This document shows positions 15,089 to 34,080 of a DNA stretch of 40,806 nt, in pieces. How positions within the stretch are numbered: position 1 is the first letter of the stretch; every line of letters begins with the position of its first letter. This stretch comes from a virus. The DNA lies in IMG/VR virus record IMGVR_UViG_3300042731_011622, positions 1 to 40,806 of that record, one strand, 5' to 3'. The notes under the pieces were generated by a model that had not been told where the DNA came from, did no database searches, and saw only the letters and a program-made list of their open reading frames with translations. A program made the translations under genes and the position numbers.

Positions 15089-15159
15089 TTGCGGGAGCGG
15101 GATTCGAACCCGCGGCTCCGGCGCATGAAGCCGGCATGTTGCCGTTACACCATCCCGCC
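15089..15159 (-). tRNA. tRNA with CAU anticodon (Met or Ile2)
   Basis: Cloverleaf on the minus strand. The acceptor pairs six bases after a G1-A72 mismatch. The D arm contains GTGTAACGGCAACAT, the anticodon stem CCGGC/GCCGG closes a loop TTCATGC (anticodon CAT), and the T stem GCGGG/CCCGC closes TTCGAAT. No encoded CCA. The anticodon fits elongator or initiator Met, or lysidine-modified Ile-AUA. The unpaired position 1-72 and G29-C41, G30-C40 pairs recall initiator tRNAs, but the third G-C pair is reversed. The tRNA lies in the structural operon just upstream of the small connector gene. Confidence 0.85.
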
Positions 15160-16625: not shown

Positions 16626-16814
16626 TCAGAACGCAACTTGCTCGTGCGTGATCACACGCTTCCCGCAGCAACGACATTCACGATTGCGAACGACCTTTCC
16701 ACCGAGAGCCCGCCGCGTGTATGTCACGCGAAAATGCTCGCAGCCGCATCTCGGGCACACCAGCCCGCGATGATCGTCTGATTTCTGCTCTGGCTTCACT
16801 GGCCGTTCGTTCAT
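16626..16814 (-). CDS. NrdR-like zinc ribbon protein
   Basis: 62 residues, ATG at 16814 overlapping the terminase stop (ATGA). Two Cys pairs, CPRCGC (~20-25) and CRCCGK (~48-53), form a zinc ribbon. Between and after them lie basic residues and RECRCCGKRVITHE, close to the N-terminal domain of NrdR, the ribonucleotide reductase repressor, whose pattern is CPxC...RRRxCxxCxxRFTTxE. The ATP-cone domain of NrdR is absent. It may bind DNA at terminase or promoter sites, or act as a small transcription factor. Length and coupling to terL favour a packaging or late-gene role. Confidence 0.75.
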   Translation of the reverse strand: MNERPVKPEQKSDDHRGLVCPRCGCEHFRVTYTRRALGGKVVRNRECRCCGKRVITHEQVAF

Positions 16815-19111
16815 CGCCGCGTCCCCTGAAGGGAGGACAGCCGCACCGTCGGGCGCGGCTTGGGTACGCCGCTGACGAGCCCGGGAGGTGCCGCGCCGCC
16901 CATCGACGCCGCCACGGCGCAGCCGACCAGACAATCGAGCCAGTGGTTGTCGAGGCCGTCGACGCGGAGCTTCCACTCGTCGACGGTCCGGCCGCGGCCC
17001 GCGGTCTTCACGCGGTACTCGCTCGTCAGATGCTCGGCGAGCAGGCGGTGCCGCTCCGGCTGGCGACCGAAGAGCGACAGGCAACCCGGGTCGCCCATCG
17101 GCACGGCCAAACGGGCCTGAACGAAGCTCTTCCAGTAGTTCGTGTCGAATACGACGTGCCGCACGGCCCGCCGGCCCACGACCGCCGGTATTCGCCAGTT
17201 CAGCCCCACGCGGTCGCCGCGCTTCCGCTTGTACTCGCCGAACGGAATCGACGAGGCCCCGACGTACTTCCCGTGACTCGGCAGCAGTACGCTGGCATAC
17301 TGGCTCTGCCGGCAGAACTGGTACACGACGTCGGTCGCCTGGCCCCAGTTCGCGTCGATCACGCAGCGGCCGATGCGCAGCACCGAGCCGTCCTCGCACT
17401 TCCACTCCTGGCCGAGCTTGGCCTCCGTCAGCCGCTCCAGGCCGGCGTAGATCGCCCCCTCGAACCCGGCGCGTGGCGCGGCCGCCGCCAGCGTCCGGCG
17501 AATGCTGCGCAGCGTGAAGTGCGGCGACTTCTGATCGGGCTCGGTCCCGTAGTCGATCACCGCCCCCGAGAAGTCGTCCCCCCAAGCCGTCACGACGTAG
17601 AACAGCGCCTTGCCCTGCACGTCCACGAACATCGTCAGGTGCGTGGCCGTCTGCGGCACCTCGCTGCGCCGCTGGCCGTTGAGCTTGGCCACGATCTGGT
17701 CGACGGTGAGCAGCTCGTCGTCGGGCTGCTGCTCGGGCAGCGGTTCGTTCTGATACTCCGCCCAGAACGCCGCATCGCCGCGGTCGAGACGGAGGTTCAT
17801 GGCGTGCTGGATCGCCGAGAGCTCGTCGGGATGGTGCCGCTCGGGCCAGGCGATCACGGCGCCGGCGTCCATCGCCACCCGGTGCGTTCGGTAGAACTCC
17901 GTCGCCTGGGCCGCGCCCTGATCGGCCCGCATTCCTTCGCGCCACAGCTCGGCGTAGCGGGCCCACAGCTTCTCGTTGCTGGGGAACGCGTAGACCATCT
18001 TCGTGCGTTCACCCTGCCACTGCGGGTGCTTCTCGCGGTCGAGCAGGCGATCGGCCAGGTCCTCCGGCCGCACGACCGTCAGCGTCATCAGACCGGCGAT
18101 CTTCCGCCCGGGCCCGGCCAGACCGAGCACCGCGCCGGCCAGGATCCGCTCCCGTACCGTGCACTGCATCGGCGACCGGGCGGATTCGTCGGTCTGCGGA
18201 TCGTCGATCAAAACCAGCGACGGGCGCACGGACGAGCCGTCGGCCCGCTTGTACTTCATGCCGCGGATGCGGCCGGTGATGCCGGCCACCTTGATGATCG
18301 CCCCGTTCGACTTCGGCGGGCCGTCCAGCCACGGCAGCGCCGGCATCGTCGGCAGGACGATCTCGCGGGCCGTCCAGCCGATACGTGTCTGCTTGCCCTC
18401 GTAGAGCTGACCCGCCGCCCGCTGGTGGATGCCCTCCAGCGCCCGCACCGGCCCGACGACTTCGGAGAAGTCCTCCTCGAGCAGGTCGTTGGTCTCGACC
18501 TCGACCTTGATGCTCTCGAGCATGCCGGCGGCGTGCTCCTCGTCGCTGCCGATCAGCGCGATGAACTCCCGGTGGCCGTAGGCCATGGCCCAGAGGCAGG
18601 CGACCTCGCAGATCGACGTCTTCCCACTGCCCCGCGGCATCGCCAGGGCGAACAGCCCGCCTTCGAGCACCGCCTGCTCGATCTTGGCGATGACCTTCAG
18701 GTGGTCCTCCGACCACGGCAGGTGGAACGTCTGCGGGAAGTACGCCTCGCAGAAGTAGCGGAAGTCCCGCTCGGCCCGGGCGCGGCGCTCGAGATTCAGC
18801 GGCGGGTGCACCCACTCGCCGCCGGCGATGTCGCGGCCGAGCAGGGCCATCTCCCGCCCGCGTTGGGCCGCCCGCTCGCGGTGGGCCTCGTAGGCCGTCA
18901 GCCCCGCCGGCTCGGGCCGCGGCCGGTGGCGTTCGAGGACCAGCCAGGCGGCGTAGCGCAGCAGGTCGATCGTCCGCCCGTCGCCGATGCGGAAGCCGGC
19001 GCGCGAGCGGTGGCGGTAGAGCTGCCGCTCGGACATGACCTCGCCCAGCGGCGTGCTGTTCAGCAACTGCACGACCTCGCTCGGCTTCAGCTTGCGCGGG
19101 TCAATCGGCAT
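16811..19111 (-). CDS. Terminase large subunit with N-terminal DNA-binding-like domain
   Basis: 766 residues, ATG at 19111. It is the packaging motor: an ATPase that drives DNA into the prohead and a nuclease that cuts concatemers. Walker A is MPRGSGKTS (~residues 174-182) and Walker B with catalytic acid is LVLIDDPQ (~300). The nuclease half includes TMFVDVQGKALFYVV (metal-binding Asp, ~517) and later DANWGQATDVV. Residues ~1-60 form an extra domain ending IDLLRYAAWLV, which resembles the separate 70-residue protein encoded at 19889-20101. Longer than the usual 450-600-residue TerL. Overlaps the next upstream gene by 11 bases. Confidence 0.93.
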   Translation of the reverse strand: MPIDPRKLKPSEVVQLLNSTPLGEVMSERQLYRHRSRAGFRIGDGRTIDLLRYAAWLVLERHRPRPEPAGLTAYEAHRERAAQRGREMALLGRDIAGGEWVHPPLNLERRARAERDFRYFCEAYFPQTFHLPWSEDHLKVIAKIEQAVLEGGLFALAMPRGSGKTSICEVACLWAMAYGHREFIALIGSDEEHAAGMLESIKVEVETNDLLEEDFSEVVGPVRALEGIHQRAAGQLYEGKQTRIGWTAREIVLPTMPALPWLDGPPKSNGAIIKVAGITGRIRGMKYKRADGSSVRPSLVLIDDPQTDESARSPMQCTVRERILAGAVLGLAGPGRKIAGLMTLTVVRPEDLADRLLDREKHPQWQGERTKMVYAFPSNEKLWARYAELWREGMRADQGAAQATEFYRTHRVAMDAGAVIAWPERHHPDELSAIQHAMNLRLDRGDAAFWAEYQNEPLPEQQPDDELLTVDQIVAKLNGQRRSEVPQTATHLTMFVDVQGKALFYVVTAWGDDFSGAVIDYGTEPDQKSPHFTLRSIRRTLAAAAPRAGFEGAIYAGLERLTEAKLGQEWKCEDGSVLRIGRCVIDANWGQATDVVYQFCRQSQYASVLLPSHGKYVGASSIPFGEYKRKRGDRVGLNWRIPAVVGRRAVRHVVFDTNYWKSFVQARLAVPMGDPGCLSLFGRQPERHRLLAEHLTSEYRVKTAGRGRTVDEWKLRVDGLDNHWLDCLVGCAVAASMGGAAPPGLVSGVPKPRPTVRLSSLQGTRR

Positions 19112-20776: not shown

Positions 20777-20857
20777 CGCCGCCGAAATCCCGACCCGGTC
20801 GGGATCGCCCGGGCGCGTGAGACCCGGGCCTGACGAGGCAACGTGAAAGGACCAGCC

Positions 20858-21418: not shown

Positions 21419-22111
21419 ATGCTCCCGCGCTTCTACCTGCGAGACGTTCAGTGGTCGGCGGCTGATCCCGTCTACGGCTCCAAGGCGACGATTGTGCGTG
21501 GCCGCGTCGCTACCCAGGAGAATCCAGGCGAATGCGATGCGAATTGGTTCGTCGGCCCTGAGACGGCGATAGTCGGTTCGCACATCGACGCCCCAGAACC
21601 GACCATTGTGCACTATGAGGTGAGGGTGCGACCGGAAGACCTTGCCAAAATCGCGCGCAGTCGACTCGTAGTCGCCGCTCGACGCCCATTTGCTGGGTTG
21701 CACTCGAAGGTGCGGGATGCCCGTGTTCGAATTTCGGTGAATGACACGCGAATCGAGTACTTCGGCCTGAAAGATGACTCGCCGCCCCACAGCGATTACT
21801 TCCACCGGGAAAGAGCGCCACTCCCTCTCGAAAGTATCCCGTTGATAAGCGATTGCCACACTATCTATCACTGGTCAATCCCACCTCGCGCTCTTGAACG
21901 GCGTACCTCTCAATTGATTGAATTCGACCTTGATCCAGCAGTGCGATGGGACATTGATTATGTCACCATCATTACGGGGACGGAGTCGCGGAAGCTGACA
22001 CCTTTCGGAGACCGCTTCCTCTGGCAGTTCCTGCTGCTCGGTCTAGTTGTCGGGATTATCCTCATCGTCATCAGCATCCTCCTCGCGAAATGGATCGGGA
22101 CCGGAGGCTAG
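21419..22111 (+). CDS. C-terminally membrane-anchored protein, unknown function
   Basis: 230 residues from ATG 21419, chosen because AGGAGG lies seven bases upstream; earlier in-frame ATGs (including 21413) are worse placed. The first ~200 residues are soluble and beta-rich (LPRFYLRDVQWSAADPVYG, VHYEVRVRPEDL), with no signal peptide. One strong hydrophobic helix near the C-terminus (FLLLGLVVGIILIVISILLA, ~204-223) is followed by a short KWIGTGG end. That topology puts the bulk in the cytoplasm, as in tail-anchored proteins. The gene is AT-richer than its neighbours, has its own promoter and converges on the methyltransferase gene with a 69-base 3' overlap. A moron acting at the membrane, for example in superinfection exclusion, is a guess. 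Confidence 0.7.
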   Translation: MLPRFYLRDVQWSAADPVYGSKATIVRGRVATQENPGECDANWFVGPETAIVGSHIDAPEPTIVHYEVRVRPEDLAKIARSRLVVAARRPFAGLHSKVRDARVRISVNDTRIEYFGLKDDSPPHSDYFHRERAPLPLESIPLISDCHTIYHWSIPPRALERRTSQLIEFDLDPAVRWDIDYVTIITGTESRKLTPFGDRFLWQFLLLGLVVGIILIVISILLAKWIGTGG

Positions 22112-22771
22112 CTCCGCCTTTTGCCCCGTGAACTGCTCCCACCGCCGCACGATCACGTCGCAGTACAGCGGGTCGAGCTCCATCAGAAACGCCCGCCGGC
22201 CCGTCTGCTCGGCGGCGATCAGCGTCGAGCCGCTGCCGCCGAACAAGTCCAGCACGTTCTCGCCCGGGCGTGACGAGTACTGCATCGCCCGCACCGCCAG
22301 CTCGACCGGCTTCTCGGTCAGGTGGACCATGCTCTGCGGGTTGACCTTCTTGACCGACCAGACGTCGGTGGCGTTGTTCGGCCCGAGGAAGACGTGGGCG
22401 GCACCCTCGCGCCACGTGTAGAAGCACCACTCGTGGTTGCCCATGAAGTCCTTGCGGGTGAGGACCGGGTGCTCCTTCACCCAGATGATCGTCTGGGAGA
22501 AGTACAGCCCGGCGGCCTTCAGCACCGGTGGGTAGTTGGCGATGTTGGCGTAGCCACCCCAGATGTACGCCGCCCGCCCGGGCAATAGCACGCGGGCGAT
22601 GTTGCCGAACCAGGCGTGCAGCAGCCGCCCGAACTCCTCGTCCGACACGAAGTCGTTCTCGAGCGGGCGGTCCCTGGGGCGCAGCTTCCGGCGTCCGGCC
22701 TGCGCTTCCTCCGCCGGGAACGACGACAGCCCCGCCGCGATCGCGTTGTTGCTGCGCGGCTCAACACGCAC
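22043..22771 (-). CDS. ParB-like/DNA methyltransferase, exon 2
   Basis: Second exon of the intron-split methyltransferase; it encodes residues 196-437 and the stop. It starts VRVEPRSNNAIAAG, in frame with the first exon's final DPPYG once the intron is removed. It holds the substrate-facing part (GRAAYIWGGYANIANYPPV, LTRKDFMGNHEWCFY), the target-recognition region, and the AdoMet-binding motif LDLFGGSGSTLIAAEQTGRR followed by LMELDPLYC. Motif order DPPY then FxGxG marks a beta-class amino methyltransferase acting on adenine N6 or cytosine N4. The C-terminus is a highly acidic tail. The last 69 bases overlap the convergent membrane-anchored gene. Confidence 0.92.
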   Translation of the reverse strand: MRVEPRSNNAIAAGLSSFPAEEAQAGRRKLRPRDRPLENDFVSDEEFGRLLHAWFGNIARVLLPGRAAYIWGGYANIANYPPVLKAAGLYFSQTIIWVKEHPVLTRKDFMGNHEWCFYTWREGAAHVFLGPNNATDVWSVKKVNPQSMVHLTEKPVELAVRAMQYSSRPGENVLDLFGGSGSTLIAAEQTGRRAFLMELDPLYCDVIVRRWEQFTGQKAELASGPDPFREEDADDDEDNPDN

Positions 22772-22810
22772 GTGGTGTAGGCCGGGAGATTGCATCCCGA
22801 CCCCAACCCC

Positions 22811-22844
22811 GAACCGGACTTGCACGTTTCCGTGCATCCGGCTC
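22811..22844 (-). ncRNA. Group II intron domain V
   Basis: A 34-nt hairpin beginning GAGCCG and ending CGGTTC, with a GAAA tetraloop-type centre and an AAG near the 3' bulge. This is the most conserved, catalytic part of group II introns and binds the metal ions for splicing. It starts 22 bases after the maturase stop, as expected. Domain VI, which should carry the branch-point A (candidate in CTACACC), follows. Confidence 0.9.
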
Positions 22845-22865
22845 TCCAGATGATTCTCGGCTCTG

Positions 22866-24533
22866 CTACGCACTGTGCTTCTCCCGGTGACAATCCAGGC
22901 ACAAGGTCTGGAGGTTCTCATCGGTGGTCGCCAGGGCGAAGCTCGCAAAGCGATGTACGGGGACGATGTGGTCCGCCTGGGAGTTCCGGTCCGTAACCCG
23001 TTTCCCACAAGCGCGACAGCGATAGCCGTCACGCTGTAAGGCGCGGTATTTCGCGTCCAGGTTCCCCAGGCGCCGGCGTTCATTGAACTGCGCGAACGCC
23101 GCTTCCATCTCGGCGTCAGTCTCATAGTCGCCCTGGCCGGGCATGTACGGTTCTGGTCCGCGATAGTCCAGCTTCATCGAAAATCCGCTGAACGTCTCCA
23201 AGCGGCAGAGGTCGTCAACCTGGAGTCCGCCGCGACGGTAGTACCGCTTCATGGCCGTGCCCGTAGGGATGTCGAACTTGCGACAGATACCCTTTAGGGC
23301 GATCCAGAGCGCATGATGATCCAACGTTCCAGCAAGGTCCGTGAAGTTGTGGGCGATACGGAAGTATTCCGACCACCCGCGCACGACCGCCGAGCCACGC
23401 TGCAACCGCAGGGCCACCGATTCCTGGTGGGGGCGATTCCGCAGCGCGTCATGCAGCCGCTGTTTCACGTTCGCCAGGGCCTTCAGACCAACCTTGATCT
23501 TCGGCACCCGCTTACCGCCTTGGCCGATTTCATAGCTCAGGCGGAAGCCGAGGAAGTCATACCCATCCTGGACGTGCGTGACGTGTGTCTTCTCCACCGA
23601 GAGTTCCAGGCCGCATTCGCGTCGAAGGAACTCGCGGATGTCATCGCGCAGCGTTTCGGCATAGCGCCGCGACGCCCGCGTGACGAAGACGCACCAGTCG
23701 TCCGCATACCGCACGAACCGAACATTCGGCCGCCGGTTGCGGGCGGCCCGCATCATGGCCTGCTCGTGCGTGCCCTTACTGTGCAGGAACCAGTCCAGCT
23801 TGTTCAGGACCGCATTGGCCAGCAGCGGTGAGATCACGCCACCCTGGGGTACGCCTTTCTCGGTCGGCTGGACAATGCCCTCGACCTCCACACCAGCCTT
23901 GAGGAACCGGTGGATCAGCGCGAGGAACTTGTTGTCCATGACCTTCTCCCGCACGGCCCGCAGGATGGACCGGTGCGAGATCTCATCGAAGCATGCCTTG
24001 ACATCTCCCTCAATCACCCAGGTGAAGCCGTGCTTCATCAGGTGCTGACAACGGAAAACGGCATGGTGCGTGCTTCGGTGAGGCCGGAACCCGTACGAAT
24101 GATCGTGGAACTCCACCTCGAAGATCGGTTCCAGCGCCATGCGGATGGCTTCCTGGACGATCTTGTCCCGTAGACAGGGGATGCCCAGAGGCCGCAGTTT
24201 GCCGTTGGCCTTCGGGATCATCACCCGCCGCACGGGTTGGGGTTGGTACGTTCCACGCTTCAATTCCAGGCGCAGACATTCGAGCTTGCCGTCGAGCCCC
24301 TTGCGGAACTCGCGTGCAGTCACGCCGTCTACGCCCGGCGCTTTGTTGTGGGACCGCCTCAGCACGCGGTCGGCCGCATCCCGCAGCCAGTGCGGGTGGT
24401 GCATCAGGTCCATCAGGTTCCGCACGCGCCCGTCATACGGGTTGGTGGGGAACAGCGGTGTCCCGGATGCACGCAATTGCCGATGCGAGCCGGATTGCTC
24501 CCACAGCCTTCTCTGGACTTCCGCCACGTTCAT
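22866..24533 (-). CDS. ltrA: Group II intron reverse transcriptase/maturase with HNH endonuclease
   Basis: 555 residues, ATG at 24533 with GAGGG six bases upstream. It splices the intron RNA and inserts it into DNA by target-primed reverse transcription. RT motifs are present: KAPGVDGVT (~64-72), [14 protein letters not shown] (~106-119), YGFRP (147-151), [14 protein letters not shown] (227-240) and catalytic RYADDW (275-280). The maturase (X) region follows ([17 protein letters not shown]). The C-terminus is an HNH nuclease: [14 protein letters not shown] (520-525) and CLDCHREKH, with four zinc-binding cysteines. All catalytic residues look intact, so the intron is probably active. Encoded within intron domain IV. 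Confidence 0.95.
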
Positions 24534-25219
24534 CGCGAGCCCTCGCGATTGACGAACGCCTTGGCCGTCCAGAACGAAACATCCTGCGTCCCTTCGCCAT
24601 GTAGACGGTTTTCCCGTCCTCGGACTACTACGGACGCTCCGCCACCCAGCCGCCTCATCGGCAGAGATTCAGCCGCCCGAAGGCGGCCTATCTGTGCGAC
24701 TGCCATACTCGGCTGGGCTTCCCTGGTTCCCTTGCTGGCACTCAAACGCTTCCGGGTAGACTCCGACCTTTCGATACCCAACAGCTCTCCGCTGCTCCCC
24801 CAAGCACCGGCGGATAGTTGACCACTCCGCCGACCTCGGAATCGCCGAAGCGATTCGCCAGGGCATGCGCCTACAACGATAGCGCTTGCCCGCTTGGGCC
24901 ATTCCCTAGCCCGGGCGGGGTACTCCCGGGCGGCTCCAGTATTCGCAGGAATGGGGGCCCACTTTCCCGAAGGTATTGGTCGGTTCCTTTCGTAGTCGTG
25001 CGGAAGCTCTACCTGGCAGGACTGCATCGGTTGTGAAGCCTCACCTGGGTCCCACGTTGTCGGGAGAGCTATGTCGCCAGCCAGCTCACACGTGCTGGCC
25101 AACTTACTCCCTAGGTACAATGGCCGGCCAAACGGCCACGGTTTGCTTCCAAACATTGCCAACAAGGTCTCTCGCATGCTCGTAATTCCTTACGCAGCAA
25201 CGCGATACATCAGGCGCAC
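24534..25219 (-). ncRNA. Group II intron domains I-III (non-coding)
   Basis: 686 bases between the intron 5' splice site and the maturase start. No gene is expected and none is credible. The stretch has many short GC hairpins, for instance around 25100-25110 and 24905-24935, as expected for domains I-III, which carry the exon-binding sites. Exact domain borders were not folded here. Confidence 0.75.
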
Positions 25220-25804
25220 GCCGTACGGCGGATCGGTGACCATCAACAGCGGCGACGCACCGTCCAGGAGCCTGGCGACGTCTCCGGCTCGCGTGGCGTC
25301 GCCGCACAGCAGCCGGTGCTCGCCGAGAATCCACAGGTCGCCGGGCCGCGTGACCGGTTCGTCCGGCGGCTCGGGGATCTCGTCGGGATCGGTCAGGCCC
25401 GGCTTCACGTCGCCGCCGAGCAGCTTCGCCAGCTCGTCGGCGTCGAACCCCAGCAGCGACCAGTCGATACCGGCCCCCTGGAGCTCGGCGAGCTCGATCG
25501 GCAGCAGGTCGAGGTTCCACGTGGCCAGCTCGGCAGTTTTGTTGTCCGCGATCCGGTACGCCCGGATCTGCTCCGGCGTCAGGTCGCGGGCGACGTGCAC
25601 GGGCACCGCCGTCAGCCCGAGCTTCAGCGCCGCCTTCCACCGTGTATGCCCACAAACGATCACGCCGGCCTCGTCGACGACGATCGGCTGGCGGAACCCG
25701 AACCGCCGAATCGACTCGGCAACGGCGTCCACCGCCGCATCGTTGATCCGCGGGTTGCTTTCGTAGGGTTTGATGGTTGCTATCTGCACGACGTCAACAT
25801 CCAT
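25220..25804 (-). CDS. ParB-like/DNA methyltransferase, exon 1
   Basis: First exon of the split gene: 195 codons from ATG 25804, preceded by AGAAGG. Residues ~1-95 form a ParB/sulfiredoxin-like domain: IKPYESNPRIND, GFRQPIVVDEAGVIVCGHTR (41-55 region), then RAYRIADNKTAELA. In phage ParB-methylase fusions this domain is proposed to bind DNA or nucleotides. The methylase part begins near residue 155 (GDLWILGEHRLLCGDAT) and reaches motif IV, DPPY, at 191-194. The exon ends on a codon boundary right after Gly195. Joined to exon 2 it gives a 437-residue enzyme, a usual length for the family. Confidence 0.92.
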
Positions 25805-25814
25805 AACACACCTT

Positions 25815-26039
25815 CTAGTCTTCGATCTCCGGCGGCGGTGGTTGTGCCAGGAAGAGCTGTTCGTAAATCCGCCGTCGCGCGTATTCGGCCAGTCCGATTG
25901 CGGAGACGTGGCGACCATGGAATCGCATTTCCACGCGATCATGCGGGTCTATCCAGATCACCAGGCCCTGGTCGGTACGTCGGAGGATCTCCGCGATCAG
26001 CTCTTCCGTTGGAACCAGCTCGAGCCCGTCCATGCTCAC
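25815..26039 (-). CDS. Small protein before the ParB-methyltransferase
   Basis: 74 residues; ATG at 26039 or, two codons later, at 26033. The sequence runs VPTEELIAEILRRTDQGLVI, then WIDPHDRVEMRFHGRHVSAI and GLAEYARRRIYEQL. It has a helix, a beta-hairpin and a helix. I recall similar short proteins (helix, 'AIGLAEYA' helix) in planctomycete phages, but their role is unknown. The gap of ten bases to the methyltransferase start implies a common mRNA. Confidence 0.65.
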   Translation of the reverse strand: MSMDGLELVPTEELIAEILRRTDQGLVIWIDPHDRVEMRFHGRHVSAIGLAEYARRRIYEQLFLAQPPPPEIED

Positions 26040-29388: not shown

Positions 29389-31098
29389 TCACGCCCGAAA
29401 CGCCGTCCCCAACACGTACCGATCGCCGGCCTGCTCGACGTGCTCCAAGTCCACGAGGTTCCGCAGCGCCGGGCGGAAGGCGCTGCTGCCGGTCGACCGG
29501 CCGGCGCGGTCGGCGATCTCGTCGGACGTCAGCGCCCGGCCGGCGTCGGCGATCGCCCGCAGCAGCGAGGCCTCGTACGCCGGCAGCTTGCCGAGCCAGT
29601 GGTCCAGCGCTGCCCGGCCCGAACGCGGCGCCGGCCGATGGTCCGGGCACGCCGCCAGCGCGGCCGACGTGGCGACGTAGCCCCGCCCGTTGGCCTCGAC
29701 CAGGCTGCGGTCGATCAGTGCCCGCAGGTTCGGCCCGAACGCCGAGCTCTTGATCGACCGGCCGGCGAGTGCTCCGAGCTGCCCCCGCGGCGTCGGTACC
29801 GGCGACCGGTCGAGCAGCACCGCCAGCAGATCCCGCTGGTACGCGTTCAGCTCGCCGTCGGCGGGAATAGAAGTGGGAATAATCCGCGCCGGTTTCTTAA
29901 CGACGGGCGCCGCCTCGGGCAGGACGACGGTCCCGGTCTCCGGCGGCGCGACCACTCGGCGGATCGACTCCTCGACTGCTTTACGACAGCTATCGACCAC
30001 CCGAGCCCACTCGGCGTCTCGCTCGACGATCGAGGCGCGCACGGATTTGGCAATGCGAAGGGCTACCTCCACCTCGTCCGGCCCGCCCGTCTGCCCTTCG
30101 AGCCGGGCGACCTCTGCTCGCAGCCGCGCCACCTCGGCCCGGAGCTTCTTCGGGTCGTTCGCCTCGACGGCCTCGGCCGAGGCCTTGATCCGTTCGCTGA
30201 GGACCGCCAGGTCGACCGGCGCCAGCTTCCGCGGCCGGATCGGCGTCTCGCCCGTGCCCGGCGTCACCGAGCTGTCGTACGTCCGCCGGCGGCGGATCTC
30301 CACGCGCTCGAACAGGTCCAGCCAGCCCGGCGACCAGAACCACGCCGTACCGCGCGGCAGCGAGGCCAGGCCGCGCATCATCTGCTCGCGCCGCTCGACG
30401 TCGCCGTGGACGTTGACCCAGTCCAGCACGGCCTTCCGGTCCTGCGGGCTGACGATCCGCAGGCAGGTGAGCAACTCGCTCTGCGTGAGGACGTTCTTGC
30501 TCAGCACCGCCGGCCGCTGGGTGATCAGCGTCAGCCCCAGTCCCCGCGACCGACCCCGCCGGACGATCGCCTCCCACGCTCCGAGCATCCGCTGCTGACC
30601 GGGTAGCGGCCGTTGCGGCGCGAACGAATCCGCCTCGTCGAGGAAGATGTGCAGCGGTGTGCGAGCCGCGGCCGTCGCCTTCCGGCGGTACAGCCGCTCG
30701 GCGAACGCCGTGGCGAACCGATCCTGAGCGGCGTTGCTCTCGAACGCCGACAGGTCCAGGACCGCCGACTGCCCGGCCTCGACCAGCCACTCGGCCACGA
30801 TCTCGCCGGCCGCCGGGTCGAGCGGGACGTCGCCGTGGTCTCCGCCGAGGATGATCACCGGCAGCCCGCGTGACCGCCCGTTGGCCCCGGCTCGCAGGCC
30901 CCACCAGACACCGGTGGGGTCGATCGCCACGCACTGCTGGCCGGCGGCGAGCATCTCCTCCATCTGCACGATCGCCGTGTAGGTCTTGCCGGCACCCTTG
31001 ATCGCCAGGATGGCCTGCGTCCGCGTGACCAGGTCGGTCGGCAGCTCGAATCGCCTGCCGGCTCCCGCCCGTCCGATGTTGAGCTTCGCGTTTATCAC
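29389..31098 (-). CDS. HerA-like ATPase with tandem C-terminal winged helices
   Basis: 569 residues from GTG 31098, with AAAGGAA about seven bases upstream; an ATG 16 codons earlier lacks a ribosome site. Walker A is AIKGAGKT (32-39) and Walker B LHIFLDEADSF (~150). The arginine-containing RRGRSRGLGLTLITQRPAVL segment matches HerA/FtsK-type DNA-pumping ATPases. After a coiled coil (LRAEVARLRAEVARLE) the C-terminus has two repeats with GRS.KSSAFGPNLRALIDRS and GRSTGSSAFRPALRNLVDLE, each ending in a short YVxxxA strand, which look like tandem winged helices. Hexameric ATPase acting on phage DNA is likely; its role (replication, repair, packaging) is open. Confidence 0.82.
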   Translation of the reverse strand: MINAKLNIGRAGAGRRFELPTDLVTRTQAILAIKGAGKTYTAIVQMEEMLAAGQQCVAIDPTGVWWGLRAGANGRSRGLPVIILGGDHGDVPLDPAAGEIVAEWLVEAGQSAVLDLSAFESNAAQDRFATAFAERLYRRKATAAARTPLHIFLDEADSFAPQRPLPGQQRMLGAWEAIVRRGRSRGLGLTLITQRPAVLSKNVLTQSELLTCLRIVSPQDRKAVLDWVNVHGDVERREQMMRGLASLPRGTAWFWSPGWLDLFERVEIRRRRTYDSSVTPGTGETPIRPRKLAPVDLAVLSERIKASAEAVEANDPKKLRAEVARLRAEVARLEGQTGGPDEVEVALRIAKSVRASIVERDAEWARVVDSCRKAVEESIRRVVAPPETGTVVLPEAAPVVKKPARIIPTSIPADGELNAYQRDLLAVLLDRSPVPTPRGQLGALAGRSIKSSAFGPNLRALIDRSLVEANGRGYVATSAALAACPDHRPAPRSGRAALDHWLGKLPAYEASLLRAIADAGRALTSDEIADRAGRSTGSSAFRPALRNLVDLEHVEQAGDRYVLGTAFRA

Positions 31099-31644
31099 GG
31101 CTGTTTCCTTTCGTTGCGGCGGGTCGCGTTCATCGCGCCGCGTCACAGCGGGTTACGGCGGATCGCATCTGGTTGAATTTCGGCCCTGGAAATAAAGTCT
31201 GATCCCGTCGGTGGCGGTTCCCGCGGGCGTCTTCCCTCTTCTCGGCCCGGGAGGACCCGTAGCAGGCCGTCTGCGGCCCGTGGCGCGATGGGGTGGACCG
31301 GGGGTACCGGCCGAGTGGCGATCGCCGCACAGGCACAACGGGACGGCGTCCTGTGGCGTTCTGGTGTAGCGACCAGGCCGGTCGGTTGTGGTGGTGACCG
31401 CGGCTGGCTTCCGTCGCTCGGGACGGGAAGGGCCGATGTTTCACTCTTTCACCCCCCCTCGCGTATACACACGCATAATAGCGCGTACAGGGGGTGCGCG
31501 AGGGGGGTAGGGTGAAAGGCTTATATATATAGAGAGAGTAGTTGTTTCTATTTATATTATAGCCATTTGCGCGATTTACTTCTTTCACCCTCAGGGGGTG
31601 AAGGAAGGGAGAACAAGGGTGAAGCATGGTCGAAGTCGAAGCCA
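31099..31644. other. Non-coding region: candidate replication origin with TTCACC motifs and AT-rich tract
   Basis: 546 bases between the primase and HerA-like genes without a credible gene. From 31439 to 31624 short motifs TTTCACC(C) or GGGTGAA(A) recur in both orientations: 31447-31454, 31510-31517, 31582-31590, 31596-31604 and 31616-31624, plus a TTTCAC at 31439. Two more lie in the primase 3' end. They flank an AT-rich stretch at 31520-31562 (TTATATATATAGAGAGAG onwards). Two pairs form inverted repeats (31447-31517 region; 31583-31602 with a short loop). Repeats plus an AT-rich unwinding tract beside a primase suggest an origin; they could also be operators for the leftward genes. Confidence 0.55.
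31582..31604. repeat. Inverted repeat of the TTCACCC motif
   Basis: TTCACCC and GGGTGAA face each other with a five-base spacer, a perfect seven-base stem. It belongs to the motif array around the AT-rich tract. The minus-strand flank is A/G-rich without a U-run, so it is not a good terminator for the primase gene. Confidence 0.65.
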
Positions 31645-34080
31645 TCATCTTTCACCTCCTGGGGTTGTTTCGGAGCGTTCCTTCACCGCCCCGGCGAGCC
31701 GATAAGCCCGCATGTTCCGGCCGGGTGTGGGCGCCGTTACCACCTCGATGTCGCCTTGCTGGGCCAGCGTCTCGACGAGCGTGCCGAACGTCTTGGCGTC
31801 GGTTTTCATGCGCTTGAGCAGCACGCTGTGGGGCAGCTCCTGACCGGGCGCGTCGCGCAGCTTCTCCAGGAGCTTCAGGCATTCGGCGTGGAAGGGGTTG
31901 TCCGCCACGTGGCTGGAGGCCATGAACAGCATGCGACGCGTCTGGTGCAGCACGAACTGCGACGCCCAGCGGACGGCCTCGACGTCGATACACGGGGCGT
32001 GGTGGTCGGCGCTGACGGCGTGCAGCAGCGCCAGCTTGCGGGTCTGCTCGCTGACGCGCCCCCATACCGTGGTGCCGACCGGGTCGCCGGCGGACTCGGC
32101 GCGGGCGTACTCGATCTCGGCCTGCTCACGGGTCTCGACGAGCAGCGCTTGGGCGTCCTCGGTCGCCGCCACGACCTGCGGCACCGGATGCCAGTCCTGC
32201 AGGTTGCCCCGCCCCGGCCGGAAGTCCGCCCACCAGCGGGCCGTCTCCATGACACGCCCGGGCACGTCCGCGATCCGCGGCTCCTGCCCCTTGCAGCGCG
32301 GCCCGGATTCGAGAATGAGCATGCGGGCGAAAAACCCGTTGGTGAGCATGCGCTCGGAGAGGGCCTCGTAGTAGTGGTTCGGAATCGCCGTGCCGAAGAT
32401 CACGAGTGTGGGCTGGTCGATCACCCCCGGAGCGGCCTTGCCCGCCTTGCGACGCATGGGGAAGACGCTGGTCGACGACGAGTACATCGTGAGCAGCGTG
32501 CCCATGACGTTCTCGTGCCGGGCGTCCTTCGCCTTGTTGATCGACTGCAGCATGCCGTCGATCTCGTCGGTCTGAAACAGCATGCAGGGGTTCAGGAACA
32601 GGGCGTCCTGAATGCCCTCCCCGGAGGCGAAGCGGTCGCCGAGGCACTCGGCCAGGCCGACCTCGTGCACGATCCGCGTGTTGACCTTGCGGGGCCAGTC
32701 CTTGCCGGCGGCCGAGTGGGCCAGACCCAGCAGGTAGACGTTCGTGCGGTTGTCGCCGGCGTCGCGGACGCGGCGGCCGGCCAGGAACGCCTGCAGGGCC
32801 AGCGCCCCGCAGAAGGCCATCACCGGGTTCGGATAGGGCGCGGTGGCCAGGCAGTAGTCCATCACCTCGCCGACGAAGCCCGGGACGCGCAGGAGCTCGT
32901 CCGGCAGCGGACTCGGATCGGGCAGCGACGGCGCCGGCTTCGGCGCCGCCACGGCGCGGCGGTCGGGCACGAACGCCGACAGATCGACGTCCGGTTCGTC
33001 CGCCGGCGGTTGCCAGTCGGGCTCGAGGGCGCGGCGCAGGTCGTGCCACGTGTATCCCTGACCTCGGCTGTGCTTGTTGCAGTAGGCGAGCTTGCCGTCG
33101 TCGCCGACGAGCACGGCTATGTCGGAGCCGCCGGTGGACGCGATCTCGGGGTTGATCGGGCAGCGTGCCAGCAGCAGGAGCGTCTTGTCGCCGTTGCGGC
33201 GGTGGCCCTTGACCTCGACGCCGTGCGCCTCCAGCCACGCCCGTACGCCCGCCGGCGTGCAGTCGAGGCGGTCGCACATGGGGCGGTCCGCCGGGGGTGG
33301 GAGGGATGCCGGTTCCGCCGGCGGCGCCATGCGTTCGAGCAGCTCGCGCGGCACGGCGACGATCGCCTCGGGCACGTCGAGCAGCTCGGCCCGGCGGTGC
33401 GGCCGATCGTCCAGGCCGGCGACGCCGCGGAGATCATCGCCCTTGCGTGAGACTGTTCCGGCCACTTTCACGATCCGGGCGGCGTTGTGGACGGACCGAT
33501 CAATCGTCACGTCCGCGTCGTCGTAGCGCTCGGCCAGGGCGACCAGCACGCGCTTCACCAGCCCCTCGTCGTCCGCCGGCAGCTCGACACGGTACAGCAG
33601 GTGATGGCCGTTGCCGGACATCACTCGGATCGGCGCCGGCCAGCCGGAATCCGCCAGGTACGCGGCCACGACCCCGGCACGCTCGGCGGCCATCGCCAGT
33701 TCGACGTCGGTCGAGCTGACGCCCGCCGGCCGCACCGGATCGACGTCGACCAGCAGCCAACGCCGGCAGACGATGTCCTTGTCCTGCGTCGTCTCACGGG
33801 CCCGCGGCTTGATGCGGTTGACCGAGCGGGCCAGCAGCGCGGGCGCAACCGGATTCATCGTCACGTAGACGGCCGGCGCAACGGCGGCGCGGTCCAGCTC
33901 GGCGATCGCCTGCGCGGCGGCACCGATGGTCTCATGTGTGAAGTAGCCGCAGCAGACGTACGTGTAGCGGGCGTCCGGGCGGTCCCGGCAATCGGGGGCC
34001 CGCACCTCGAAGACGTCCCCCGGCTCGAAGAGCAGTCCGAGGAAGCGCTGAATCGACTCTGCCACCGGCGTCTCGGCCAT
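31645..34080 (-). CDS. Primase-helicase fusion (AEP/PrimPol-type with C-terminal P-loop domain)
   Basis: 811 residues, ATG at 34080. The N-terminal ~230 residues resemble archaeo-eukaryotic primases: the DVD metal site in LLVDVDPVRPAG (112-114), SGNGHHLLYRV (155-165) and DRSVHNAARIVKVAGT with VSRKGD (194-215). A CNKHS-type segment around 330-350 may bind zinc. The C-terminal half holds a P-loop ATPase with LGLAHSAAGKDWPRK (Walker A, ~470-485) and LFQTDEIDGML (Walker B). The pairing synthesises primers and unwinds DNA at the fork. It lies between the SF2 helicase and the candidate origin, fitting an initiation role. Similar to DUF3987-type phage primase-helicases. Confidence 0.82.
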   Translation of the reverse strand: MAETPVAESIQRFLGLLFEPGDVFEVRAPDCRDRPDARYTYVCCGYFTHETIGAAAQAIAELDRAAVAPAVYVTMNPVAPALLARSVNRIKPRARETTQDKDIVCRRWLLVDVDPVRPAGVSSTDVELAMAAERAGVVAAYLADSGWPAPIRVMSGNGHHLLYRVELPADDEGLVKRVLVALAERYDDADVTIDRSVHNAARIVKVAGTVSRKGDDLRGVAGLDDRPHRRAELLDVPEAIVAVPRELLERMAPPAEPASLPPPADRPMCDRLDCTPAGVRAWLEAHGVEVKGHRRNGDKTLLLLARCPINPEIASTGGSDIAVLVGDDGKLAYCNKHSRGQGYTWHDLRRALEPDWQPPADEPDVDLSAFVPDRRAVAAPKPAPSLPDPSPLPDELLRVPGFVGEVMDYCLATAPYPNPVMAFCGALALQAFLAGRRVRDAGDNRTNVYLLGLAHSAAGKDWPRKVNTRIVHEVGLAECLGDRFASGEGIQDALFLNPCMLFQTDEIDGMLQSINKAKDARHENVMGTLLTMYSSSTSVFPMRRKAGKAAPGVIDQPTLVIFGTAIPNHYYEALSERMLTNGFFARMLILESGPRCKGQEPRIADVPGRVMETARWWADFRPGRGNLQDWHPVPQVVAATEDAQALLVETREQAEIEYARAESAGDPVGTTVWGRVSEQTRKLALLHAVSADHHAPCIDVEAVRWASQFVLHQTRRMLFMASSHVADNPFHAECLKLLEKLRDAPGQELPHSVLLKRMKTDAKTFGTLVETLAQQGDIEVVTAPTPGRNMRAYRLAGAVKERSETTPGGER

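Follow-up and report, generated by a model that had tools for sequence, protein, structure and literature searches.

In PICI/SaPI the replication origin lies directly 3' of the initiator gene rep (Rep or Pri-Rep) and has an AT-rich region between two sets of short iterons, which the initiator recognises through its C-terminal domain (PMC6092414, PMC7581432). For SaPI Rep, the iterons read by the C-terminus are 3' of the protein's own gene, and the same holds for SCCmec Cch2 (PMC7581432). In P4, priming, unwinding and iteron binding by a winged helix are combined in a single polypeptide, the alpha protein, whose primase domain is of the bacterial TOPRIM type (PMC4234260). ORF904 of pRN1 combines a prim-pol domain, a helicase and a C-terminal winged helix, and its origin is 3' of the gene and contains a large stem-loop; a stem-loop origin of this kind has also been suggested for phage BIP-1 (PMC4234260). 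Binding, assembly, melting and priming by the initiator have been proposed both for Rep of SaPI and Cch2 of SCCmec (PMC7581432) and for P4 alpha and pRN1 (PMC4234260). DUF3987 is a predicted helicase found fused to archaeo-eukaryotic primases (AEP) of mobile elements in the PrimQH and All3500 families (PMC5862659); the word iteron is missing from the main text of that paper. Our literature search, with subscription papers mostly outside its reach, returned no paper on iterons with DUF3987 primases or on their origin.

Here we analyse an array of TTCACC/GGTGAA repeats in an IMG/VR viral contig of 40,806 bp and ~67% GC (the window). Comparison with relatives leads us to suggest that the region 31440-31690 is very probably a phage replication origin of the self-loading iteron type that is read by the winged helix of the primase.

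The repeat array and the primase-helicase

Seven exact TTCACC/GGTGAA copies lie within 31448-31687 (240 bp), between the body of the primase gene and the gene for a HerA-like ATPase; a single near-copy, TTCACT, is found at 31440 (Table 1). Nowhere else in the window do more than two copies fall within 240 bp, and TTCACC occurs 27 times in the window compared with 14.6 +/- 3.7 expected. GGTGAA forms the joint densest hexamer cluster of the window with only these 27 occurrences; the co-leader, CCGCCG, has 205. The initial annotation had described at least seven copies in both orientations within 31439-31657, at a density above chance, with two inverted pairs around an AT-rich stretch. Number, density and the two pairs (31448/31511 and 31584/31597) are borne out, the copy at 31682 lying 25 bp past the end of that interval, and a check for an even spread over the window found none. 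The array was also said to lie between the primase-helicase and HerA-like genes, which is accurate overall, with the correction that the copies at 31651 and 31682 fall within the 3'-terminal part of the primase ORF. GC skew, proposed as an origin mark, was uninformative: with the recognised genes of the contig on one strand, it was positive only locally, at 31-34 kb.

Table 1. Coordinates of the repeat array, its associated elements and the neighbouring genes.
Feature	Position	Strand	Basis or remark
HerA-like ATPase, next recognised gene	29389..31146	-	family matches; gene at this position differs in relatives
GC-rich core palindrome, long single-strand hairpin	31446..31518		11-bp perfect arms; folding z; core in relatives
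Iteron copy TTCACC	31448..31453	+	exact copy; outer stem of hairpin
Iteron copy	31511..31516	-	exact copy; outer stem of hairpin
AT-rich segment, candidate DNA-unwinding element	31519..31583		contains AT-richest 60 bp of window; layout kept in relatives
Iteron copy	31584..31589	+	exact copy
Iteron copy	31597..31602	-	inverted pair with 31584, 13-bp spacing
Iteron copy	31618..31623	-	21 bp to next same-strand copy
Primase-helicase gene, 811 aa, initiator candidate	31645..34080	-	PHROG 3022 'DNA primase', Pfam DUF3987
Iteron copy TTCACC	31651..31656	+	within primase ORF; Shine-Dalgarno-like too
Iteron copy TTCACC	31682..31687	+	within primase ORF; 31 bp to next same-strand copy
C-terminal winged-helix domain, ~residues 727-797, putative iteron reader	31690..31902	-	model, comparison; PHSVLLKRMK helix
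DUF3987 AAA+ domain, MCM-like fold, ~residues 395-725	31906..32898	-	Pfam, model, Foldseek, VIA-align
N-terminal archaeo-eukaryotic (prim-pol) primase-like region, ~residues 1-360	33001..34080	-	Foldseek; near-invariant residues

The domain folds of the primase are those predicted by a structure model built on 34 relatives (mean pLDDT 84); with its low pTM of 0.57, the model should not be relied on for how the domains are placed relative to each other. The N-terminal region has Foldseek matches to Prim-PolC and CRISPR-associated prim-pol (CAPP) and contains near-invariant D112, D114 and H160. The AAA+ domain has Walker-like GK459-460 and DE505-506, and among solved structures it is closest to MCM subunits (VIA-align Z 17.7, 270 residues, 3.7 A). 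The modelled winged helix consists of helices 729-743, 751-758 and 762-775 and strands 778-783 and 790-795. Searches of solved structures by sequence gave no match with the helicase profile and chance-level matches only with the winged helix. Among the window ORFs scanned, no DNA polymerase was recognised. The primase half (N-terminal 350-380 aa, in loci L002-L069) is far less conserved than the helicase half, and most first-scan matches span only residues ~350-810, which suggests that the N-terminal domain is exchanged too.

Comparison with described origins

As in PICI/SaPI, the window array is immediately 3' of the gene for a candidate initiator, here with a putative origin role, and iterons lie on both sides of an AT-rich region. 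In contrast to these satellites, which lack most virion genes, the carrier is a tailed phage: the window encodes a terminase, a portal, a head protease/major head protein and a tape measure. The predicted initiator also differs, with prim-pol, DUF3987 AAA+ and winged-helix domains compared with a DUF927 or D5-type Rep, and the window has an additional GC-rich hairpin. Because initiator and carrying element differ, we do not file the array as a PICI origin.

In P4, crr lies directly 3' of the alpha gene, as the window array lies 3' of the primase gene; however, ori and crr are separate sites in P4, and the N-terminus of the window primase models as prim-pol (AEP) whereas P4 alpha is of the TOPRIM (DnaG) type. 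The P4 type 1 repeats, mainly TGTTCACC (L499, 4291-4590 and 9310-9413), contain the hexamer GGTGAA, which may be coincidence or convergence. Kinship to P4 alpha by way of the common hexamer was considered and found no support at the profile level, at which the DNA-binding domains do not align (the alpha C-terminus and the window winged helix gave an hhalign probability of 0.2%).

With pRN1 the window shares a large stem-loop 3' of a prim-pol/helicase/winged-helix gene, but pRN1 has an SF3 helicase and no iterons, whereas the window has mainly iterons, to which the hairpin is added. SCCmec Cch2 is a self-loading helicase whose C-terminal domain binds direct repeats that lie downstream of the gene encoding it; there, however, priming is by a separate polymerase-MP pair, and the carrier is a chromosomal cassette and not a phage. 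The window primase is an AEP-DUF3987 fusion of the same kind as PrimQH/All3500. By analogy, the putative window origin would share its mode of action with the origins of PICI/SaPI and P4, while using another initiator and residing in complete tailed phages.

Conservation of the array in relatives

Scans of viral contigs gave 440 loci; 159 remained when only distinct primase genes followed by at least 250 bp of sequence were retained, and control bins were taken from the same loci. At least three GGTGAA copies are present within -70 to +330 of the primase stop in 99/159 non-redundant relatives compared with 19/3,194 control bins, and 133 of the 159 primase 3' regions contain a strong array of any word. 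Reading the relatives side by side, the order is iterons, AT-rich stretch, inverse iteron, palindromic core and iterons; the AT-rich stretch frequently contains ACTCTCTCT, and the core has C-rich/G-rich arms about an alternating purine-pyrimidine spacer. The AT-richest 40 bp has iterons on either side in 84/85 GGTGAA loci and 27/37 loci with other words, compared with 46% for random placement, and this 40-bp segment is in the top 1% of its own locus for AT in 117/122. In the window, the AT-richest 60 bp is located at ~31522 (0.73 AT).

Same-strand iteron spacings in the relatives peak at 10-11, 20-21, 31, 42-43, 53 and 63 bp, i.e. at ~10.5-bp multiples. The window spacings (same-strand 21 and 31, opposite-strand 13 and 63) agree with those frequent in relatives, 13 bp being the commonest opposite-strand spacing. 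The extended iteron consensus is approximately GGGTGAARGAAG. There are 435 exact GGTGAA copies compared with 14 expected and few one-mismatch variants in excess; the hexamer is, by this comparison, under purifying selection, exact copies being kept while the spacers diverge.

Some loci depart from this pattern. About 10 loci with a GGTGAA-type winged helix have at most two copies nearby (L122, L125, L137, L100, L043, L032, L035 and others have few or no copies), and L038 has its array 1.8 kb further away. Among nine more distant cultured phages, three have other-word arrays at the same place (phiAxp-1, ACCGAAAACA; Kharn, ATACAAC; RHph_TM3_3_14B, CAATTCCAAA), and a comparable array is absent in six (NP1, H188, RcSpartan, H40/1, Ssp-JY40 and NV1.1.1), indicating that the rule holds in the primase family of the window and thins with distance. 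An element of the form GGTTCCTTCCCG...GGAACAGTCGC..AGACAGAGTTTGTTT.GCGTGTCCGG was observed ~60-120 bp past the array and before the next gene in L460, L018, L008 and L022; Rfam gave nothing convincing for this element in the relatives, and it was not seen in the window.

The initial annotation had regarded both an initiation site and a master operator as plausible. As an operator, the repeats would bind a repressor or the primase itself and control transcription of the downstream operon, in line with sites that are clustered and inverted and that sit between the primase gene and the next gene, together with a weak promoter-like site on the + strand at 31530; moreover, initiators often autoregulate as well. 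However, that site is the only one of its kind in the array region, the AT-rich segment and the GC-rich hairpin are retained along with the array, the word tracks the primase winged helix (see below), and the following gene varies, falling into ~50 families in 90 loci and being on the opposite strand in 28/90 (crude ORF call). The array lies 3' of the primase gene and not at its promoter, and an operator of the primase was rejected for this reason. On these grounds we consider the operator highly improbable and strongly favor the initiation site, for which position and layout are conserved in relatives and the word co-varies with the DNA-binding domain of the primase. A ribbon-helix-helix (RHH) protein is not needed by the origin explanation.

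The same survey of neighbouring genes bears on the idea that the array is a partition/segregation or packaging site (pac/cos) that by chance lies beside the primase. Such sites also hold repeat arrays, and a ParB-like gene comes next in 19/90 relatives; most arrays, however, have no adjoining ParB-like gene, the terminase gene of the window is ~12 kb off, and the co-variation is with the primase winged helix, so that this alternative appears highly improbable.

A GC-rich hairpin beside the iterons

The right-hand iteron pair 31448/31511 runs on into an 11-bp perfect palindrome, CCCCCCTCGCG/CGCGAGGGGGG, so that the core reads CTTTCACCC + CCCCCCTCGCG ... CGCGAGGGGGG + GGGTGAAAG, and the array strand at 31446-31518 folds into a single long hairpin (z -5.8, DNA parameters). 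A core of the pattern ACCCC[CT]...G[AGT]GGGG is found in 71/159 primase 3' regions compared with 12/3,194 control bins, and also in 15 of the 60 primase 3' regions with fewer than three GGTGAA copies. As judged from this distribution, iteron classes have a second element in common, namely the GC-rich hairpin next to the right-hand iterons. Its arms match slightly better within a locus than across loci (8.74 vs 7.96 of 16; 0/2000 permutations) and the longest perfect stem shows no clear difference of this type (155/2000 permutations), so that the hairpin may or may not function as a cruciform.

A coding reading of the region was rejected: a 172-aa ORF crossing the array, for which the iteron at 31651 resembles a Shine-Dalgarno site (AGGAGGTGAAAG-ATG), lacks the codon bias of a coding sequence (GC3 0.65 vs 0.90 in its neighbours) and has no family match. 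An intrinsic terminator was looked for at the array and none was found.

Co-variation of the repeat word and the winged helix

Thirty-seven non-redundant relatives have a strong array in which the layout is the same and the word differs. The alternative words are GTGACGGATT, CAATAAG, CTTTTGTCC, CTTTTGGCC, CTTATGGCC, AAACGTG, AATAGGT, AATGAGT, CAAAAAGT, GCAAGAAC, GCGAACC, GGGAATCGA and others, and the commonest alternative C-terminus likewise models as a winged helix (pLDDT 86). Among the strong-array loci (122), those with more similar winged helices also have more similar repeat spectra when helicase identity is allowed for (partial Mantel 0.71, 0/999 permutations; 0.70 using solely DNA 3' of the primase stop), whereas the reverse partial correlation, with helicase identity, is 0.30. 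The word is shared in 1286 of 1360 pairs with winged helices at least 50% identical and in none of 195 pairs in which the helicases are 70-95% identical and the winged helices <30%. Winged-helix type and GGTGAA array are concordant in 131/133 loci; on the helicase tree the two change jointly in all seven independent pairs (7:0, median p 0.016), and GGTGAA presence requires 21 changes on this tree vs 11 on the winged-helix tree. Individual loci illustrate both directions: L069 has a helicase merely 34% identical, yet a GGTGAA-type winged helix and a GGTGAA array, and L052, L146 and L204 have helicases 72-74% identical with other C-termini and other words.

By these comparisons the repeat word follows the winged helix and not the helicase, suggesting that the primase has an exchangeable C-terminal domain that reads the word of which the repeats consist, and the co-variation strongly supports that the C-terminal domain of the initiator specifies the iteron. 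Because the winged helix adjoins the array in the DNA, joint exchange contributes to and inflates the correlation. In the extreme case, the 3' end of the primase gene and the array would be swapped as a cassette and another factor would bind the repeats, physical adjacency by itself giving the correlation. The nearby helicase domain correlates far less, however, hexamers are exact in diverged surroundings, and the association recurs in distant loci, e.g. L069 and the L058/L146 pair. These observations speak against linkage as the sole explanation, which is highly improbable.

A model for replication initiation

Combining the layout with the co-variation data, we suggest that (i) the primase-helicase made from the adjoining gene would bind the GGTGAA iterons via its C-terminal winged helix, (ii) copies spaced by approximately whole helical turns on both sides would align several primase subunits, (iii) the MCM-like AAA+ domains would form rings and melt the AT-rich segment, and (iv) the prim-pol domain would lay primers that a host or other polymerase would extend, the GC-rich hairpin perhaps being a priming or loading site. 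Co-variation is the support for iteron binding by the primase; ring assembly, melting, priming and the role of the hairpin are conjectural steps of this model.

More tentatively, and with rather less than even confidence, we propose that these loci represent a widespread and so far undescribed class of phage origin in which a conserved prim-pol/MCM-like initiator swaps its winged helix and the matching word as a pair. More than a dozen such pairs would then constitute a recognition code keeping replicons apart, with the GC-rich hairpin core as the common melting/priming element.

An origin of this kind would map the origins of phages that use DUF3987-type primase-helicases, and small purified domains together with short DNA would allow direct tests of how they initiate. 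In the natural swaps, a set of protein-DNA pairs would be at hand for studying word choice by a winged helix and the way in which phages keep from firing one another's origins. The arrangement also suggests, contrary to an earlier statement, that phage satellites are not alone in having, 3' of the initiator gene, two iteron sets about an AT-rich region.

Hosts and other features of the window

Relatives within bacterial assemblies are chiefly from Planctomycetota, and 30/40 such loci have a GGTGAA array, although most of these assemblies are metagenome-assembled and binning errors are possible; L460, with 10 copies, is the complete chromosome of Planctomycetales bacterium ZRK34.

The HerA-like ATPase matches phrog_2666, which is named terminase large subunit; the proper terminase is at 16811-19111, and the HerA-like protein is probably a translocase. 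A ParB-like/DNA methyltransferase gene (phrog_498, 22043-25942, - strand) is split by a reverse transcriptase-HNH ORF (22866-24533), and an Rfam group II intron match lies within the split gene at 22772-22846; the phage gene is probably interrupted by a group II intron. The window also has a tRNA gene at 15089-15159 (- strand, Rfam) and a match to the type II hammerhead ribozyme at 20780-20847 (+ strand), which is above the Rfam gathering score and on the strand opposite to the recognised genes.
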